Shown: piece by piece, positions 9,340-39,200 of the stretch
How the letters are laid out: each line of letters opens with the position of its first letter
Numbering within the stretch: position 1 is the stretch's first letter
Assembly: GCF_036373705.1 (NCBI RefSeq)
Contig: NC_089866.1
Span: 8,752,001 to 8,816,000, forward strand
Direction: 5' to 3'
From: Amia ocellicauda
Lineage: Eukaryota; Chordata; Actinopteri; Amiiformes; Amiidae
DNA: 64,000 nucleotides
Translations under genes and position numbers: made by a program
The notes under the pieces: model-generated
The model's input: only the letters and a program-made list of their open reading frames with translations
Database searches by the model: none
What the model was told of the DNA's origin: nothing

Positions 9340-9669
9340 AGGTAGCTGATGTGCCTGCTAATTTTGAACAATATCAGAGCTGGTGTGAGAGGTTGGTGGA
9401 CTATGAATGAAAGAGTGCACCTGTTCTAAAAACTGTATGAGTATCAAATTGAGTCATAATAATGCTTTATTCTCCAATTGGTCTCTAATTTAGTTGTATT
9501 TGTTTAGATCAGTAGTTTTAATTGGAAAATTTGGAAAATGTAATTGGGAAAACAAAAAAGACAAAATGAGTATCAAATGGATACTGCCCCTTGCATATTA
9601 TACGAATTACTCCACAGACTGTGTAAGTCATCTGGTATTCACTCCCCAAGGTATAATATAAAAATTACA
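9340..9669. repeat. Left arm of a 330-bp inverted repeat flanking the inverted MPV17L segment
   Basis: This 330-bp segment is the reverse complement of 12532-12861. Only scattered mismatches are visible over the full length (for example GAATTACTCC here against AAATTACTCC in the reverse complement of the other arm), so identity looks close to 99% by eye. Matching stops abruptly at both ends and no target-site duplication is apparent outside the arms. The arms bracket 2862 bp that contain MPV17L exon 4 and a Tc1 element. Confidence 0.9.
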
Positions 9670-9945
9670 ATCACCTATACCTATAATCATCTGTAATGAG
9701 AAAGGCACAGACTTTGCATGTGAAGTGTCCTTTCAATCGTGGAATTTAGCAGAACCATAAGATGTGCCAAATAAACAAATTAAAGCAAATTATGGAATAA
9801 ACAGATAATTCACAGACCTCATTAACTCAGCTGAGGGTGTCACAGGCAGAGCTTGAGATAGATAAACAGTCATTAAAATGGCATTTGTTTTTGTACTGAC
9901 TTATAATAAAAAATATTTGTTCCTCTTTAAAAATAATATATACAG

Positions 9946-9989
<44 letters not shown>

Positions 9990-9992
<3 letters not shown>

Positions 9993-11207
9993 TCACCTAA
10001 AGGATTATTAGGAACACCATACTAATACTGTGTTTGACCCCCTTTCGCCTTCAGAACTGCCTTAATTCTACGTGGCATTGATTCAACAAGGTGCTGAAAG
10101 CATTCTTTAGAAATGTTGGCCCATATTGATAGGATAGCATCTTGCAGTTGATGGAGATTTGTGGGATGCACATCCAGGGCACGAAGCTCCCGTTCCACCA
10201 CATCCCAAAGATGCTCTATTGGGTTGAGATCTGGTGACTGTGGGGGCCAGTTTAGTACAGTGAACTCATTGTCATGTTCAAGAAACCAATTTGAAATGAT
10301 TCGACCTTTGTGACATGGTGCATTATCCTGCTGGAAGTAGCCATCAGAGGATGGGTACATGGTGGTCATAAAGGGTTGGACATGGTCAGAAACAATGCTC
10401 AGGTAGGCCGTGGCATTTAAACGATGCCCAATTGGCACTAAGGGGCCTAAAGTGTGCCAAGAAAACATCCCCCACACCATTACACCACCACCACCAGCCT
10501 GCACAGTGGCATGATGGCATGATGGATCCATGTTCTCATTCTGTTTACGCCAAGTTCTGACTCTACCATCTGAATGTCTCAACAGAAATCGAGACTCATC
10601 AGACCAGGCAACATTTTTCCAGTCTTCAACTGTCCAATTTTGGTGAGCTTGTGCAAATTGTAGCCTCTTTTTCCTATTTGTAGTGGAGATGAGTGGTACC
10701 CGGTGGGGTCTTCTGCTGTTGTAGCCCATCCGCCTCAAGGTTGTACGTGTTGTGGCTTCACAAATGCTTTGCTGCATACCTTGGTTGTAACGAGTGGTTA
10801 TTTCAGTCAAAGTTGCTCTTCTATCAGCTTGAATCAGTCGGCCCATTCTCCTCTGACCTCTAGCATCAACAAGGCATTTTCGCCCACAGGACTGCCGCAT
10901 ACTGGATGTTTTTCCCTTTTCACACCATTCTTTGTAAACCCTAGAAATGGTTGTGCGTGAAAATCCCAGTAACTGAGCAGATTGTGAAATACTCAGACCG
11001 GCCCGTCTGGCACCAACAACCATGTCACGCTCAAAATTGCTTAAATCACCTTTCTTTCCCATTCAGACATTCAGTTTGGAGTTCAGGAGATCGTCTTGAC
11101 CAGGACCACACCCCTAAATGCATTGAAGCAACTGCCATGTGATTGGTTGGTTAGATAATTGCATTAATGAGAAATTGAACAGGTGTTCCTAATAATCCTT
11201 TAGGTGA

Positions 11208-11210
<3 letters not shown>
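9990..11210 (-). mobile_element. Full-length Tc1/mariner transposon, copy 1 (1221 bp)
   Basis: The element is bounded by terminal inverted repeats: CACTCACCTAAAGGATTATT on the left and its complement ending AGGTGAGTG on the right. TA target duplications lie at 9988-9989 and 11211-11212. It inserted in a TA-rich tract. It carries one uninterrupted transposase gene and so appears structurally complete. A second copy of identical length lies at 37703-38923. Confidence 0.95.
10022..11062 (-). CDS. Tc1/mariner transposase, intact, DD36E spacing
   Basis: This 346-codon frame encodes a cut-and-paste DNA transposase. The N-terminal third (about residues 5-120) has the paired helix-turn-helix DNA-binding region, including a LLGFSRTTISRVYKEW helix. 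The catalytic triad is D155 in VAWSDESRF, D246 in FQQDNAPCH and E283 in SPDLNPIEHLW. I count 36 residues between the second D and the E, where classical Tc1 has 34, so this belongs with DD36E (Incomer-type) Tc1/mariner elements. No stop or frameshift is visible and all three acidic residues are present, so the protein could be active. It starts just inside one terminal repeat and ends just inside the other. Confidence 0.93.
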   Translation of the reverse strand: MGKKGDLSNFERDMVVGARRAGLSISQSAQLLGFSRTTISRVYKEWCEKGKTSSMRQSCGRKCLVDARGQRRMGRLIQADRRATLTEITTRYNQGMQQSICEATTRTTLRRMGYNSRRPHRVPLISTTNRKKRLQFAQAHQNWTVEDWKNVAWSDESRFLLRHSDGRVRTWRKQNENMDPSCHHATVQAGGGGVMVWGMFSWHTLGPLVPIGHRLNATAYLSIVSDHVQPFMTTMYPSSDGYFQQDNAPCHKGRIISNWFLEHDNEFTVLNWPPQSPDLNPIEHLWDVVERELRALDVHPTNLHQLQDAILSIWANISKECFQHLVESMPRRIKAVLKAKGGQTQY

Positions 11211-11212
<2 letters not shown>

Positions 11213-11260
<48 letters not shown>

Positions 11261-11264
11261 TATA

Positions 11265-11296
<32 letters not shown>

Positions 11297-11318
11297 AATA
11301 TATATGTATATGTGTGTG

Positions 11319-11354
<36 letters not shown>

Positions 11355-11410
11355 TATATGTATATGTGTGTATATATATATATATATAAATATATATGTA
11401 TATGTGTGTG

Positions 11411-11447
<37 letters not shown>

Positions 11448-11513
11448 GTGTGTATATATATATATATAAATATATATGTATATGTGTGTGTATGTAATAT
11501 ATATATATATATA
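11213..11513. repeat. Compound (TA)n/(TG)n tandem repeat
   Basis: About 300 bp of (TA)n are interrupted by a recurring unit of the form AAATATATATGTATATGTGTG, repeated roughly five times with alternating TATG insertions. It abuts the right end of the Tc1 element. Every open frame here (tyrosine/isoleucine runs) is a repeat artefact. Confidence 0.9.
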
Positions 11514-11869
11514 TTATATCATGCTATGTATACATTATGGTTATCAGAATATAGGACCTACTTCAGTATGGAAAAATAAACATTTCACTTAAGGGACAGA
11601 GTTTAGTTATGCTGATCATGTGTATGTATGTGTCACTATGACATCACTCCCCTATGTTCTCAAGAGCATATGGATCCCCTGCACTTGATGGCTAGTGTTT
11701 TTCTGTGGCAGGCTCCAGGAAACTAAACTCTAAAAGAAGAGAATGCTATGAATGCTATGACCATATTATGGCACCTAGACAGAGAAACCCCAAGTAAATA
11801 ATAGAGGCTCCTTTCCAAGCCCTGTGGTCTGAAAGCTCTCTCTGTCGGCGTCTCTCTCTCTCTCCCCAG

Positions 11870-12055
11870 TTGCTAAACTTATTGTTGGTCCCGCTGTACC
11901 TGCGCACCACCTTCACCGGGTGCTGTGCCTTCCTGTGGGCTACCTTCCTCTGCTTCTCTCGCCACAGTGGGGATGGGACAGACAGCGCCGCCCTGGTGTG
12001 GCTGATGTCACCGAGAGAGGACGCCGCCAGGATGAAGGATGACAAGCAGGAATGA
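11870..12055 (+). pseudogene. MPV17L: MPV17L last exon (exon 4), in inverted orientation
   Basis: After a good polypyrimidine-CAG acceptor (ending 11869), 61 codons and a TGA read LLNLLLVPLYLRTTFTGCCA then FLWATFLCFSRHSGDG. This is the conserved C-terminal part of MPV17-like protein (human LTNFSLVP and GVCGFLWATFICFSQQSGDG). The phase joins exactly to exon 3, which ends in YWPFVQ, yet exon 3 is on the minus strand at 13034-13063. The exon is therefore flipped relative to the rest of the gene and cannot be spliced to it in cis. The exon itself is undamaged, which suggests a recent inversion, an inversion polymorphism or an assembly orientation error. Typed as pseudogene because it cannot form part of a normal transcript as arranged. 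Confidence 0.88.
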
Positions 12056-12531
12056 ACGTCGCCTGTGTGCCCCAGAGTCAACCAAGCCGAAGCCATGAAA
12101 CAAGCGGTTGTTTTTCTTAAGGTTTTAAAATGTAGTTGTGCCTTCATGTGAGAAAGATACCTCTTGTGCACTAATATCATAGCAGGGTGTCTTGGTTCCT
12201 GGACAGAGAAGCGTTGTTAGTCATTCTCATGTTCATTTGAATCTTTGGTGTCTCTTCTGCTCTGGCTGGTGGGGGGAGAGACATGGATTCTCCCCCCTTT
12301 CTTGATTGTTTGTGAAGTAATTTTTTATGGCACATAATCCATAGTGTTTTCTGATGATAAAGGGCCTGTTTACAACCTATAGGAATCCAAACACATGAGA
12401 ACTGCAATGCCTGAGGTACTTGAATTGAAAAGTAAGTCATGTAAAGCACACCTTAGAACAGACCACAATGACCACAAGTCTACTAGTACTGTATAGTGCT
12501 TCCCCCCTGCATGAAACAGAAGCACGGTTAA

Positions 12532-12861
12532 TGTAATTTTTATATTATACCTTGGGGAGTGAATACCAGATGACTTACACAGTCTGTGGAGTAATTTGTA
12601 TAATATGCAAGGGGCAGTATCCATTTGATACTCATTTTGTCTTTTTTGTTTTCCCAATTACATTTTCCAAATTTTCAAATTAAAACTACTGATCTAAACA
12701 AATACAACTAAATTAGAGACCAATTGGAGAATAAAGCATTATTATGACTCAATTTGATACTCATACAGTTTTTAGAACAGGTGCACTCTTTCATTCATAG
12801 TCCACCAACCTCTCACACCAGCTCTGATATTGTTCAAAATTAGCAGGCACATCAGCTACCT
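12532..12861. repeat. Right arm of the 330-bp inverted repeat
   Basis: Reverse complement of 9340-9669 with only a few mismatches. It lies in what would be MPV17L intron 3, between exon 3 (13034-13063, minus) and the inverted exon 4. It has no tRNA-like boxes, poly(A) tail or coding potential and does not look like a transposon terminus. Confidence 0.9.
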
Positions 12862-13033
12862 CAGCATAACTCTCAACACTGTAACAGTGGCAGCATTTCT
12901 ACTTGTAGTTACATGTTTGTGCACTTAATTATGTAGAGGATAGAATATTTCATTATAATGTACATTTCAAACACTAGTGAACATAACAAATACAGCAAAA
13001 TATGGACAGAAAGCATTTTAGAAACTTAGGTAC

Positions 13034-13348
13034 CTGAACAAACGGCCAGTACATGAGTCCAGTCTGAAAACCAAAAACGTATACAGTCAGTTTCACTTTA
13101 CATCCCCATTACAGTTCTGTAAATAAAATAATTTAAAAATGTAAAGGAAATATAAATAGAATAGGAAAAAGGGTCTCAATGTGTGGGTTAACATGTGGAT
13201 ATGTGTGAGAGAATTATAGAGGGGAGATTGGACTGAATTATAAAACCATGACTTTTCCTCACGTGCTCCAGTCATACCTTGTAGGTGTTCAGGAATTTCT
13301 CCCTCCAGTCTTGCAGGATGTCCTCCTTGCCCTCAAGAAAACTCATCC
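13034..13348 (-). pseudogene. MPV17L: MPV17L exons 2 and 3, intact
   Basis: Exon 2 (13278-13348) reads MSFLEGKEDILQDWREKF and on to LNTYK, between a TAG acceptor and a GTATGA donor. Exon 3 (13034-13063) is a 30-base micro-exon encoding TGLMYWPFVQ, between a TTTTCAG acceptor and a GTACCT donor. Both match MPV17L, a four-helix membrane protein of the MPV17/PMP22 family linked to peroxisomal and mitochondrial reactive-oxygen metabolism. Phases agree: exon 2 needs one base from exon 1, and exons 2 to 3 and 3 to 4 join in phase 0. The exons themselves look functional. The locus is called pseudogene only because of the state of exon 1 and the orientation of exon 4. Confidence 0.88.
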
Positions 13349-14537
13349 CTACATCACAAAGATAAATATGTCACTGGCGGTCACCATCCATGGGTGACAG
13401 GATATGTCACCACTCTGTATTGGCACAAAGAGTGTTTTATTTTGCTATCTTTTGTTGCCTACATGTCTGCAGTACAGGAATACAGCCCTAAGATAGCTTG
13501 AACGGCATTCCCAATATACCCTTTTCAAAAATGACAGTGCACACATAAAGCACACAGGTGAGATAAAGCATGGAATAAACCATGGCAAACTATGGAAAAA
13601 GCCATGGAGAAGCAAAGTGAATGCCTGGAATATAGCCTACATGGTACTACTGTGCACATTTACTGAGGTAAACTTTCATAAGATTTGTTACCAGTACATA
13701 ATGATTAATTGGTGCTAAACATGTGGGCATATTCATCTTTTAATCATTTTATATTCAGGTCAAAAGTTCACCCGTCAGTGACATTTCCCTAACTGAACTA
13801 TTTTACACTGGCTGTACAGTGGCGCCCTCTACTGGCATTTATGACAGATTTTAGTATTATACAGTAATGTACTACCAGCAATCTGAGATGTTAAGCTAAT
13901 AAATGGTTATTCTTATCCTTATTCTTATTTTGCAGATGCCCTTCATCAAGATTCATGTCGAGTATTACTAGGTGGACTGGCTTTTGCTGTGTTTGTTTGT
14001 CTTTCCACCTGGTTGTCTATTGTCCTTGTCTTCCTGAAACATGACAGAGGTCAGGAAGAGAAAGCAGGAGTTAAAGCAGTCTGACCTTGTACTCCATTAA
14101 TGGTTTAAAATGGAAATGAAATGTATGTTTGATATTTCCAAACCAACTTGAATATGTTCTGCTTCAATTCAGTCGTTTGAAAGTCTTGTACGTGGGACAT
14201 GATCTGAGATATGCAATATTTAGTTATATACAGAGAGAGTTCAGAATGATGTACAATAAATATAGAGCACAACATCATGCGATTGCCGTACAATGTATCA
14301 ACATATTATAAAGCAACTAACATAGAGAATATATCATGACACTGAAGTACATTTCCCCATCTATCTCTGTGACAGAGAAAGCAAAGTACGAACATGGTAA
14401 AGAAGGTAGAGCCCCTACGCTAGTCGTGGCAGGAATCCCAGGCGTCAGGACCCCATGATGCGGCATCTGACCCCTGAGTGGAAACACTACCTGTATCCCA
14501 CCAGAGCCCAGGGTCCGAGCGAGCTGAGCTCCTCTCC

Positions 14538-14792
14538 CTGTGCAGAAGACGCTGGTGGCGGCGGTCTGGTCCAGCTGCAGTTTGCGCGTCACGGCGCCGG
14601 CGGATCTCCCGGGAAAACGCCGCTCCAGCGCGCGCATCCACACGCAGTTGAAGTTGCCGTGGAAACCGAACGCCACGAGCGGCACTTTCTGCGCGCGCGG
14701 TTCCAGTCCAGCCGGTCGCGCGCCGTCGCGCACAACAGGCAGCCGCGGAAAAGCCCTGCTCGTTTAGAAAGCCAAGGAAATGCTGTCTTTTG
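14538..14792 (-). pseudogene. MPV17L: MPV17L exon 1, degraded remnant
   Basis: The clear family match is VAFGFHGNFNCVWMRALERR followed by FPGRSAGAVTRKL, LDQ and ATSVFCTG, in one minus-strand frame. Upstream of it, PWLSKRAGLFRGCLL and DRLDWNRARR lie in a different frame, so there is a frameshift near the GC-rich CGCGCGCAGAAAG. About four codons seem missing between LDQ and ATSVF. No start codon precedes PW in frame (a TAG at 14793-14795 does). At the expected end, ACAG is followed by GGAGAG instead of a GT donor. These point to a decayed exon. A run of sequencing errors in a GC-rich exon is the main alternative. Confidence 0.7.
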
Positions 14793-19500: not shown

Positions 19501-22500
19501 TTTGCCAGAGTTAAAGCAGTCTGTTGGGATAGGTCTTTGCACACCTAGATTTGGCAATATTTCACCATTGTTCTGTAAAAAACTGTTCAAGCTGTGTCAA
19601 GTTCCTTGGGGAGCGTTAATGGACACCAATCTTCAAGTCACGTCATACATTTCCCATTGAATTTAGGTTGGGCTGAGCCACTCAAGGATATTTAGTGTAG
19701 TGTAGCTCTGGCTGTGTGCTTCGCATCATTGTCATGCTGAAAGGTGAATTTCCATCCCAGTTTCAGCTTTCTTGCAGAGTGCAGCAGGTTCTCTTCAAGG
19801 ATTTTTCTGTACTTTGCTCCATTCATTTTCCCATTATCCTGAAAAGTGCCCTGCCGATGAGAAACATCCCTATAACATGATTCTGCCAGCACCATGCTTC
19901 ACAGTAGGGATGGTGTTCTTTAGATGATGCACTGTGTTGAGTTTGTACATAAACAAACTGTTTGCCACATGGCTACAGAATCTCCTGAGTGTTGCATACT
20001 TCAAACAGGAGTTAAGGTGGACTTTGTTGGATAATGGCACACTTTGACCAGTCTTAACTATAAAAGCCTGTAGCTCTTGCAATGTTGTTGTTGGCTTCTC
20101 GGTAGCCTCTTGGTATCAGTCTCCTTCTTGCTCAGTCATCCCGTTTGGAGGGATGACCTCATCTTGGCAGGGTCTCGATGGTGCCATACACCTTCCACTT
20201 CTTAATAATCATCTTGATGGTGCTCCATGGAATATTCAAGGCCTTTGATAGGAATACAAATGTATCCCCTTGTTTATCCCTGAGCTATTTTGAAACCTCC
20301 TTGTTGCTCTTTGCTTTCAAATGCACTACCAGCAGAATGAACCTGCATGTTTTTTATTTACTTGGAAGTTGTTGGGTAGGATGTGAAGATAAAATAAATA
20401 ATAATACTATATTTTAATTACAAGTTATAAGGCAACAATAGTTGACAATTTGAAAGGGAGGTAGACTTTCTATAGGCACTGTATATTCAACTTTTGTAAT
20501 TTTTTTAAGTTTGGATAATAAGCAGAACTTTGTTTTGCTTTACAGTAGTGTCTTTAGTGAAACAAGATGTGTCCTTTCTGCTTAAGCTGACCTGTATTTC
20601 TCTGCTTTGTCCAGATGGTGGTTGACCCCACGCTCGCGGAGATGGGAAAGAATCTCAATGAGGCCATGAAGATTTTGGAGGATGGTCAAAGGTGCTCAGT
20701 TTTCTTCTGCTCAGCCCTTGTGTGATTTTATACTTGTGTATTCCTCCCTCCCTTGCTTGATTCAGTGTTGGAATATGTTAAAGTAACTTAATGATTCATT
20801 TTCTTATGCAAGTAGACCTCAAGGACAATGTCATTGCCCCCAACTTGGTGTGGAATGGTGCACTGTGAGATGTGACTTTTACCTGCTCTGGCTGGAATGA
20901 GACTTTTTCCCTCCAGTGTTGATATCCCTTTTCCTTGTTTTCTGTCTTGCTGCAGGGAAGCGGAAGAGGACAAAGACAAAAGGAGATATGGGCGGAAGGA
21001 CATCCCAGGGCCTCTTCAGGGAAGGTAAGGAGGCAGCATTCCATCGCTACCAAGACTGTGCAGAAATAACACTGACATTGTGCAGAGAGAAGACCCACAA
21101 GTGACATGTTTTTATCTGGCACTCAACGAATGTCCTTTGGTGGCATTGCACCTGACAGCTGATAGATCTCCCCTCCTTGTTAATTCTTGAATATAGACGT
21201 TTTATTAAAAACAAAGTAAATAAATCTATTTCATGTAACAAAATCAAATAACTTGCATACTTTGCATTTGCATGTCATTTAACATACCTTTTTTCGGTAA
21301 CAAATATATTTTCTTCCTTTTGTGTATCAAGATTAATGCTTTCTCCTTCTCTGTGTGTCTGCAGTGGGCAGGACATGGCCAGCATCCTCCAGCTGGTTCA
21401 GAACCTGATGCATGGGGACGAGGAGGAAGATAATCAAAGTTACCGGTAACTTTAACTTAACAACATGGCTTCTCAAAGCTGTAAAGTTGGTGGGCCAGTG
21501 GAGTGTGTCATGTCATGTCTGTCCCAATTGACATTTGGAAACTTACTCAGCCAGTCACATGGCTTTGTTTCAAGTTCCATAGCGAAAAATGCATTATAAT
21601 ATCCAATAACTAAGCTACTGAACCGCCCCGTCGCTCAGCTCCCCTGTGACTTCTCTGCCCCCGCACTGGTCTACTCCTGTGCCTGTGTCCGCCCCCTCCA
21701 CTCGCTGGGCTCCTCAGTGCTGTGACCCTGTTGGTGCCGTGTTGTTCTCCAGCAGGATGCAGAACGTGGGGGAGCAAGGGCACATGGCCTTGCTGGGACA
21801 CAGCCTGGCGGCCTACATCTCGGTGCTGGACAGGGAGCGGCTGAGGAAACTGACCACACGCATCCTGTCGGACACCACCCTCTGGCTCTGCCGCCTCTTC
21901 AGGTCTGTATGGCAGCTCTGGACTGCATCCAGGGTGCAGTGTGAAGCTGGTTGGACTCTTTAAGCCATTGCCATAGTCGCATTCTCTTCCGCCCAGCCGG
22001 ATTATCCTAACTGACCTTGTTTGTACTTGCAAAGGAATGGCCATATTGTAGGCAGACTAATGTGCTATTGGGCCTAGATGTGTCTGTGACCAGTGTTTCA
22101 AAGCATGGATTGATGGACGCTATTGCTCCAAAAGTCTGGGTTATTAACCCCCTTTCAAGTTGTCTGCATTCACATTCATTTATTTGTTTGTATAACTTGG
22201 CAAATTGAGCTTGTGGCAGAGGATATTTTGGTCTGGCGTTACATGTGTGTGTTTTTAAAGGTTTGTCTTGTCATGTTTGCCAGGTATGAGAGTGGCTCAG
22301 CCTATTACCACGAGGATGACCGGGAGGGGCTGCTCAAAGTGTGCCGTCTGGTCATCCACTCACGCTATGAGGACTACTCGACCGAGGGCTTCACTGTCCT
22401 GAACAGCAAACAGCCAATCATCTACCAGAGTGCAGCCTGCAGGCAGGGACTGGGACAACACCTCTGCAACCAGGTACTGTCCCAGTCCCTTGGAATGATA

Positions 22501-36234: not shown

Positions 36235-39200
36235 TTACTGCTGCTCGCTTGGAGTCACCCTCTCCCAGCTTCCCTGCTCCGTCCTGTGGAAGAGCTGGGC
36301 CTGTCCCCCTGGAAACAGGCTGTCAGGGCTGGGATGGTCCAGCAGGAACTGGATGGTGCTCTTGATGTGCTGTATGAAGTGTGGAGGTTCCACCTGAGGC
36401 GATGTGGACAGGTACTGGAAACGGTTAGAGAAACACTTAACACCCAAGGGTCTAAACATGTCCTCCTAGCTCAGGTTCTCTCTCCTTCTAAGACTTGAAT
36501 TCTTATCTAGCTACCTAACACAAATCTCTATAAATAAACATTACAAATAGGATAATTGTTCATATTGTCTTTATCTAGGAACATGGAGTGAATGGTAGAG
36601 TGCAAATTACTGTTCTGAAAACAGACTGCCAATTTTTTGAAGTAAAAATAAATATCAAGGACAAGCAAATATGCCCCCCAAGCTGATAGCTGATAGCTGA
36701 TAGCTGATAGTGATCTTGTATAAATCGCGCCAGGAATAGATTCTCCGATAAGAACTCAGCCCCTCGTACCTTTAATATAGTGTCATCGTCCTGCATCAAC
36801 CAGAAGCCGATGTCCATGTTGGGCGACCATTTGCAGGGCCCGACCTTCACCAGCTCTTTACTGGAATCGTAGATGTTGGCCATCTGGAAAAACAGGCCCA
36901 GATCTCCTAAGACAGACAACAAATCCAGTCCCTGCAGGTACTAAGCTACACTAGGGGCCAAACCTGGTCAAATATTTACTAAAAAGTCAGGGTATTACGT
37001 ATGTTTATTGTAGTTACTGTAACAAACTTACAGCTTCTCAGACAAAATGGTGGCAACAAGCCCCCATAAAACATTTTGAAAGAAAAAAAAAAAACAATGT
37101 CAAACTGAATTAAAAATGCTGGTGTTACATGTGAGAAAATGTACCAACTTTGGAAAATCGAGCCCTAGGTCACAGCTCCCAAATATCAGCCACCACTGCA
37201 AACTTCCTCCCATCCCCCATTCACTCCACATCCTGCCCTCTTGGTCCCTCATCTCTAACTAAATCTCCACATCTGTACTTCTTCAGGTGGCCCCACTGCT
37301 CACCTGACACCTGGTGTGTAGCCCTCATCCTGAAGAAACACAATGTCTGATTTTTTTATTTAATTTATTCTGTCCAATATGGACTTGAGGGGACAAGATA
37401 CTCTCTATTTATATATAAGCTATATTGCATAACCCTGGCTGCTGCCTTGGTACCTGTCCTCCAGTGAAGGTCCGCGCTGATCGCAGCTCCTCGGCCGGGC
37501 CTCTGCTGGGGAAGGACCCTGGGAACACCTCCCCACTTTTTACGTTGATTCCTGGACACACAAAGCAAAGTCTCACATATTGATTGGGCATTCATGCATG
37601 TATACACCTATATATTTTTTTAAACCATAAAACCTGGAATTATTTTATCATATATCATCATGATTGAATCAAACCACTAACAATATCTATGTTATTAATA
37701 TACACTCACCTAAAGTATTATTAGGAACACCTGTTCAATTTCTCATGAATGCAATTATCTAACCAACCAATCACATGGCAGTTGCTTCAATGCATTTAGG
37801 GGTGTGGTCCTGGTCAAGACAATCTCCTGAACTCCAAACTGAATGTCTGAATGGGAAAGAAAGGTGATTTAAGCAATTTTGAGCGTGGCATGGTTGTTGG
37901 TGCCAGACGGGCCAGTCTGAGTATTTCACAATCTGCTCAGTTACTGGGATTTTCACGCACAACCTTTTCTAGGGTTTACAAAGAATGGTGTGAAAAGGGA
38001 AAAACATCCAGTATGCGGCAGTCCTGTGGGCGAAAATGCCTTGTTGATGCTAGAGGTCAGAGGAGAATGGGCTGACTGATTCAAGCTGATAGAAGAGCAA
38101 CTTTGACTGAAATAACCACTCGTTACAACCGAGGTATGCAGCAAAGCATTTGTGAAGCCACAACACGTACAACCTTGAGGCAGATGGGCTACAACAGCAG
38201 AAGACCCCACCGGGTACCACTCATCTCCACTACAAATAGGAAAACGAGGCTACAATTTGCACAAGCTCACCAAAATTGGACAGCTGAAGACTGGAAAAAT
38301 GTTGCCTGGTCTGATGAGTCTCGATTTCTGTTGAGACATTCAGATGGTAGAGTCAGAATTTGGCGTAAACAGAATGAGAACATGGATCCATCATGCCTTG
38401 TTACCACTGTGCAGGCTGGTGGTGGTGGTGTAATGGTGTGGGGGATGTTTTCTTGGCACACTTTAGGCCCCTTAGTGCCAATTGGGCATCGTTTAAATGC
38501 CACGGCCTACCTGAGCATTGTTTCTGACCATTTCCATCCCTTTATGACCACCATGTACCCATCCTCTGATGGCTACTTCCAGCAGGAAAATGCACCATGT
38601 CACAAAGGTCGAATCATTTCAAATTGGTTTCTTGAACATGACAATGAGTTCACTGTACTAAACTGGCCCCCACAGTCACCAGATCTCAACCCAATAGAGC
38701 ATCTTTGGGATGTGGTGGAATGGGAGCTTCGTGCCCTGGATGTGCATCCCACAAATCTCCATCAACTGCAAGATGCTATCCTATCAATATGGGCCAACAT
38801 TTCTAAAGAATGCTTTCAGCAACTTGTTGAATTAATGCCACGTAGAATTAAGGCAGTTCTGAAGGCGAAAGGGGGTCAAACACATTATTAGTATGGTGTT
38901 CCTAATAATCCTTTAGGTGAGTGTATATATATATATATATATAATATTTCAGATTGTTAACATTTCAATACAATTAAATATAATACAGGCAATTCAGTGT
39001 ATTCCCATGTATCATTATTGTTTTAATGAAACTGCAGCGCTTCACTGTCCCTGGGCCACAGTACCTATTCCATACACCGCAGGTCTGTGGATCCCTTCAG
39101 ACACGACATCATTCAGCTCTGGAAAAAATAAAAAACAGGTCTTCTTGACCAGAGGTTTGGCAGCTTCTACACGTATATGCCATTGCTACAATTTGCTCCA

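Follow-up and report, generated by a model that had tools for sequence, protein, structure and literature searches.

On balance, MPV17L of Amia ocellicauda is probably a unitary pseudogene, or near-pseudogene, at its ancestral locus, in which a real and fairly recent inversion of 2.86 kb, most likely involving a staggered break, has turned the last coding exon against the rest of the gene. The arrangement itself is plain in the assembly: exons 2 and 3 lie on the minus strand and the phase-matched exon 4 on the plus strand, within a segment bounded by two near-identical inverted arms. The initial annotation had placed these features at coordinates that proved exact, and the domain match and the splice sites agree with them. 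It was also right that cis splicing cannot join exon 3 to exon 4 in the assembled sequence, since exon 4 lies on the opposite strand. Its suggestion of a gene-breaking inversion stands as far as the orientation of exon 4 as assembled is concerned, but the otherwise sound gene that such an inversion would have broken does not: exon 1 lacks an upstream in-frame ATG, contains a frameshift and has no GT at the expected donor, damage that makes the gene look defective quite apart from the inversion.

The window, by which we mean the whole 64-kb stretch of DNA analysed, lies within a contig of 29.8 Mb, where it spans 8.752-8.816 Mb; the assembly comprises 988 Mb in 385 contigs. The Tc1 elements and the genes of the window suggest a ray-finned fish. 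When exons 2-4 are joined, their product fills 62 of the 62 positions of the Pfam profile PF04117 (Mpv17_PMP22) with 71.4 bits (profile search, cut-off 27), as against 23.7 bits, below the cut-off, for exon 4 alone, and the plus-strand exon 4 therefore belongs with the minus-strand exons 2 and 3. Pfam assigns the family Mpv17/PMP22 only; the choice of MPV17L over other family members is presumed from the C-terminal motif and from synteny, and the names MPV17L2 and PXMP2 for the family members on contigs C28 and C23, respectively, are likewise presumed. In a Pfam scan of window frames, four of the ten had a match (Table 1). PDXDC1 and RRN3 are neighbours of MPV17L in the human genome as well, so that the window is probably the true, ancestral MPV17L locus. 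A search for a solved structure of the family gave a single match at E up to 1, to an unrelated designed protein (E 0.49). On contig C23, three copies of a short exon (18879328-18879390, 18886907-18886969 and 18894449-18894511), spaced at about 7.5 kb, match the end of the Mpv17_PMP22 profile with 22.4, 23.3 and 23.3 bits, all below the cut-off; part of a PXMP2-like gene has possibly been duplicated in tandem there.

Table 1. Features of the MPV17L locus and its neighbourhood (positions in the window unless a contig is named).
Feature	Position	Strand	Remarks
Left arm	9340-9669	-	minus strand equals right arm; 330 bp, 2 mismatches
Inverted segment	9670-12531		2862 bp between the arms; holds Tc1 element, AT-rich repeat and exon 4
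Tc1-type transposon	9970-11215	-	inside the inverted segment; 98% identical to 37698-38943
AT-rich, microsatellite-like stretch	11211-11510		adjoins the Tc1 element; about 300 bases
MPV17L exon 4, last coding	11870-12055	+	CCCCAG acceptor, TGA stop; strand opposite to exons 1-3
Right arm	12532-12861	+	carries the first poly(A) signals 3' of exon 4
MPV17L exon 3	13034-13063	-	30 nt; AG acceptor, GT donor
MPV17L exon 2	13278-13348	-	71 nt; AG acceptor, GT donor; internal ATG
Exon 1 conserved block	14536-14688	-	open; no upstream in-frame ATG; GG at expected donor
Upstream exon 1 piece	14703-14729	-	frame differs from the conserved block (frameshift between)
PDXDC1-like	two window frames		Pfam 28.8 bits (just below cut-off 29) and 39.3 bits
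RRN3	window frame		Pfam 27.9 bits, cut-off 25
TMEM238	window frame		Pfam 101.6 bits
MPV17L-like paralog	contig C1, ~64112.2-64114.3 kb	one strand	four exons, three introns with GT/AG edges; apparently intact

The state of exon 1 was judged against the MPV17L-like gene on contig C1, which has the same exon order and serves as a paralog, not as the fish ortholog. In the window, tblastn with the exons of this paralog recovered two minus-strand pieces, the exon 1 block (E 9e-9) and exon 3 (E 0.11), together with a plus-strand exon 4 (E 9e-5); exon 2 was absent from these matches. The frame of the exon 1 block runs 5' into a stop codon without an ATG, and at the expected donor position GG is read instead of GT, with in-phase candidate GTs 36 and 66 bases beyond it. 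A frameshift-tolerant alignment of residues 54-121 of the paralog, from its exon 1, to the window takes a four-residue gap as well as a frameshift, the latter within a CG-rich run; the same residues aligned to the C28 gene or to the paralog itself give no frameshift. The first 53 residues of the paralog had no partner in this alignment to the window. A copy of the missing N-terminal part elsewhere in the window was sought with the first 73 residues of the paralog (matches at E up to 20), and the best match (22375-22458, plus strand, E 0.12) was judged to be due to chance. When 54 residues of the C28 gene serve as query, the frameshift falls at a different place and the CG run outside the alignment, and milder penalties place two further frameshifts upstream; the number of lesions counted in exon 1 thus depends on both the query and the penalties. 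In the shifted frame, the 14 residues directly next to the block give a score of 31; when the 200 upstream bases were shuffled base by base 20,000 times, no score reached this value (mean 4.8, largest 27). Searched alone across the window, this 14-residue piece has an E of only 10, and its weight therefore derives from its position. The frameshift in the CG-rich run may be a consensus error, and a 5' exon unlike that of the paralog may provide the start codon; such an error, such a hidden exon or a later GT may each cancel one of the exon 1 lesions. As sequenced, the coding exons are neither all on one strand, exon 4 being opposite, nor in a frame intact from an ATG, exon 1 being damaged, and disabling lesions are found in the only copy, with the provisos that the frameshift may be a consensus error and that a related paralog exists on C1. 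Within intron 1 of MPV17L, an open stretch on the plus strand (13935-14084) follows an AG and encodes a single probable membrane span, followed by a short tail and a stop; a genome search at E up to 10 gave a single match, the stretch itself, and Pfam offered no convincing family (best E 0.2). The stretch is possibly the last exon of another gene.

Exons 2-4 are in a different condition. They are open, without a stop codon or frameshift, and have kept their splice sites as in a living gene, which speaks against a pseudogene. Their product carries leucine at a site that is tryptophan in all three aligned paralogs, and again at a site that is phenylalanine in two of the three and isoleucine in the third, in an alignment for which the exon joins were made by eye in two of three rows; these substitutions at paralog-conserved sites hint weakly at relaxed constraint. 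The contrast with exon 1 would be expected if the split gene were still used, by trans-splicing or as a short form of exons 2-4 made from a haplotype in normal orientation, with selection on the C-terminal half while exon 1 decays. The internal ATG of exon 2 would suit such a form; set against it are the two substitutions, and the fact that no plus-strand 5' exon has been shown for exon 4, and we hold this reading to be extremely unlikely. Only slightly more credible, and still very unlikely, is a last-exon segment that flips repeatedly and so provides on and off orientations for an exon 2-4 short form during the decay of exon 1.

Over 330 positions, each arm is the reverse complement of the other but for 2 mismatches (9524 and 9604; 0.6% divergence); as extended by a repeat tool, the arms are 336 bp long and have 4 mismatches. 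Self-comparison of the 64-kb window (blastn, word 16, E 1e-10, low-complexity filter on) yielded three inverted pairs in total: two Tc1 copies, the arms, and the ends of a Tc1 element. Searched against the animal's own assembly, the arm sequence has two matches, which are the two arms; genome searches of this kind omit very common words, and their match counts are lower bounds. With two genome matches only in a search that skips such words, an origin of the arms from a dispersed transposon family or another multi-copy element is unsupported. In the 945 bases 3' of exon 4 (12056-13000), the poly(A) signals ATTAAA (12679) and AATAAA (12730) both lie within the right arm. The arm is thus probably native to the 3' end of the gene, and the symmetry of the arms lets exon 4 retain an arm-borne 3' end whichever way it faces. 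Inspection by eye of the arm edges revealed neither target-site duplications nor microhomology. The Tc1 element inside the segment has a transposase frame (10022-11062, minus strand) open over 346 codons, with matches to HTH_Tnp_Tc3_2 (63 bits) and DDE_3 (51.9 bits). Its near-identical copy elsewhere in the window is in the opposite orientation, and the two could in principle recombine, which would invert about 26 kb.

Further copies of the displaced sequence were sought in the genome. A translated search with the exon 4 protein gave three matches, of which the one in the window is strong (E 5e-37) and the others are weak (E 0.29 and E 1.4). At the DNA level, 11540-12525 and 12862-14000, the latter covering the region of exons 2 and 3, each had a single match. 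A second or relocated exon 4 can therefore be set aside, with one strong genome match and none on the minus strand nearby; the initial annotation had noted that an intact minus-strand exon 4 close by would make the present one a duplicate, and none was found in the window or in the genome. Searches with the arm, exon 4 and exons 2-3 likewise returned no alternative haplotig from the assembly. This bears on the possibility that the arms are older than the inversion and that the segment is turned again and again by homologous recombination between them; the two orientations would then segregate, with a working gene on one haplotype. Near-identical inverted repeats are a known setting of recurrent inversion (PMC3961182), and the intact exons 2-4 with their splice sites would fit a gene in use. 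We nevertheless consider this unlikely, because the assembly yielded no second haplotype, the haplotype at hand has a damaged exon 1 irrespective of the direction of exon 4, and the arms, at 330 bp, are shorter than the repeats of 1.6-24 kb in a panel of human inversions (PMC3961182).

Inverted repeats at the edges of a segment are also a typical place for assembly errors, and exon 4 might truly lie on the minus strand, with the assembly in error across the arms. Against this, the 64-kb window contains no N, the contig is 29.8 Mb long, the arms measure only 330 bp, and the AT-rich repeat of about 300 bases inside the segment has been resolved, which together suggest long reads spanning an arm and the whole 3.5-kb unit; in addition, no N occurs in 107,367 bases of 24 partly overlapping loci from the same genome. 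A misassembly is thus less likely than a real inversion, and we would call it improbable.

A real inversion by staggered breakage would have required two breaks, of which one was staggered. The 330 bp between its offset ends would have been copied and placed, inverted, at both sides, and the segment, comprising intron-3 sequence, the Tc1 element, exon 4 and its 3' end, would have been rejoined in the opposite direction, after which transcripts of exons 1-3 would no longer reach exon 4 in cis. As the arms do not resemble a repeat family, one such event, which both inverts and duplicates, is the simplest course, whereas recombination between older arms would require a prior inverted duplication of the same sequence. 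The edges bear out what a staggered break should leave, namely inverted duplicates of an otherwise single-copy sequence on both sides (very common words having been skipped), and no junction scar that would tell the two courses apart was found. The damage to exon 1 would be a separate matter that probably rendered the inversion harmless. Arm divergence is small relative to the several lesions of exon 1, from which we infer that the gene was damaged first, provided that the inversion made the arms and that they have not been homogenised since. A recent date is itself open to the objection that gene conversion between the arms may make them seem young, and fixation of the inverted state in the species would be a further supposition.

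Inversions formed via staggered double-strand breaks in Drosophila leave inverted duplicates (PMC4965816), and the present case resembles them in having a short, apparently single-copy sequence inverted at both edges of the segment. It differs in measuring only 2.86 kb, in lying within one vertebrate gene and in being known here from the inverted, two-armed state alone. Human inversions between near-identical repeats are described as often recurrent (PMC6748972, PMC3961182). HsInv0030 shares with MPV17L the inverted repeats at the edges and the movement of exon sequence to the opposite side, but both of its orientations have been genotyped in populations, whereas a single haplotype is known here. 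The excerpted text of PMC6451431 names zebrafish mpv17l and mpv17l2 and does not mention gene structure. Among the matches listed, titles and abstract openings contained no report of the present inversion or of MPV17L loss in fish, the listed papers on Mpv17-like protein isoforms did not contain the term M-LPS, and a literature search for an inverted exon or intragenic inversion between inverted repeats in a pseudogene returned no matching paper. In the intron-22 inversion of factor VIII, a cause of haemophilia A, a gene is likewise split by inversion between inverted repeats and cis splicing fails; that, however, is a disease allele, and its repeats are much longer and far apart. With unitary pseudogenes, MPV17L shares lesions of frame and splicing in the sole copy found at its locus, and it differs from them in also having an inverted exon.

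MPV17L of A. ocellicauda gives no sign of a novel mechanism and would be a clear, small case of an exon-scale inversion whose repeats look self-made. Annotation pipelines will probably cut the gene short or give it a wrong name. The intact-looking paralog on C1 might make the loss of the MPV17L in the window tolerable, and setting the locus beside that of related species would show when, and by what sequence of events, MPV17L was lost in one lineage of fish.
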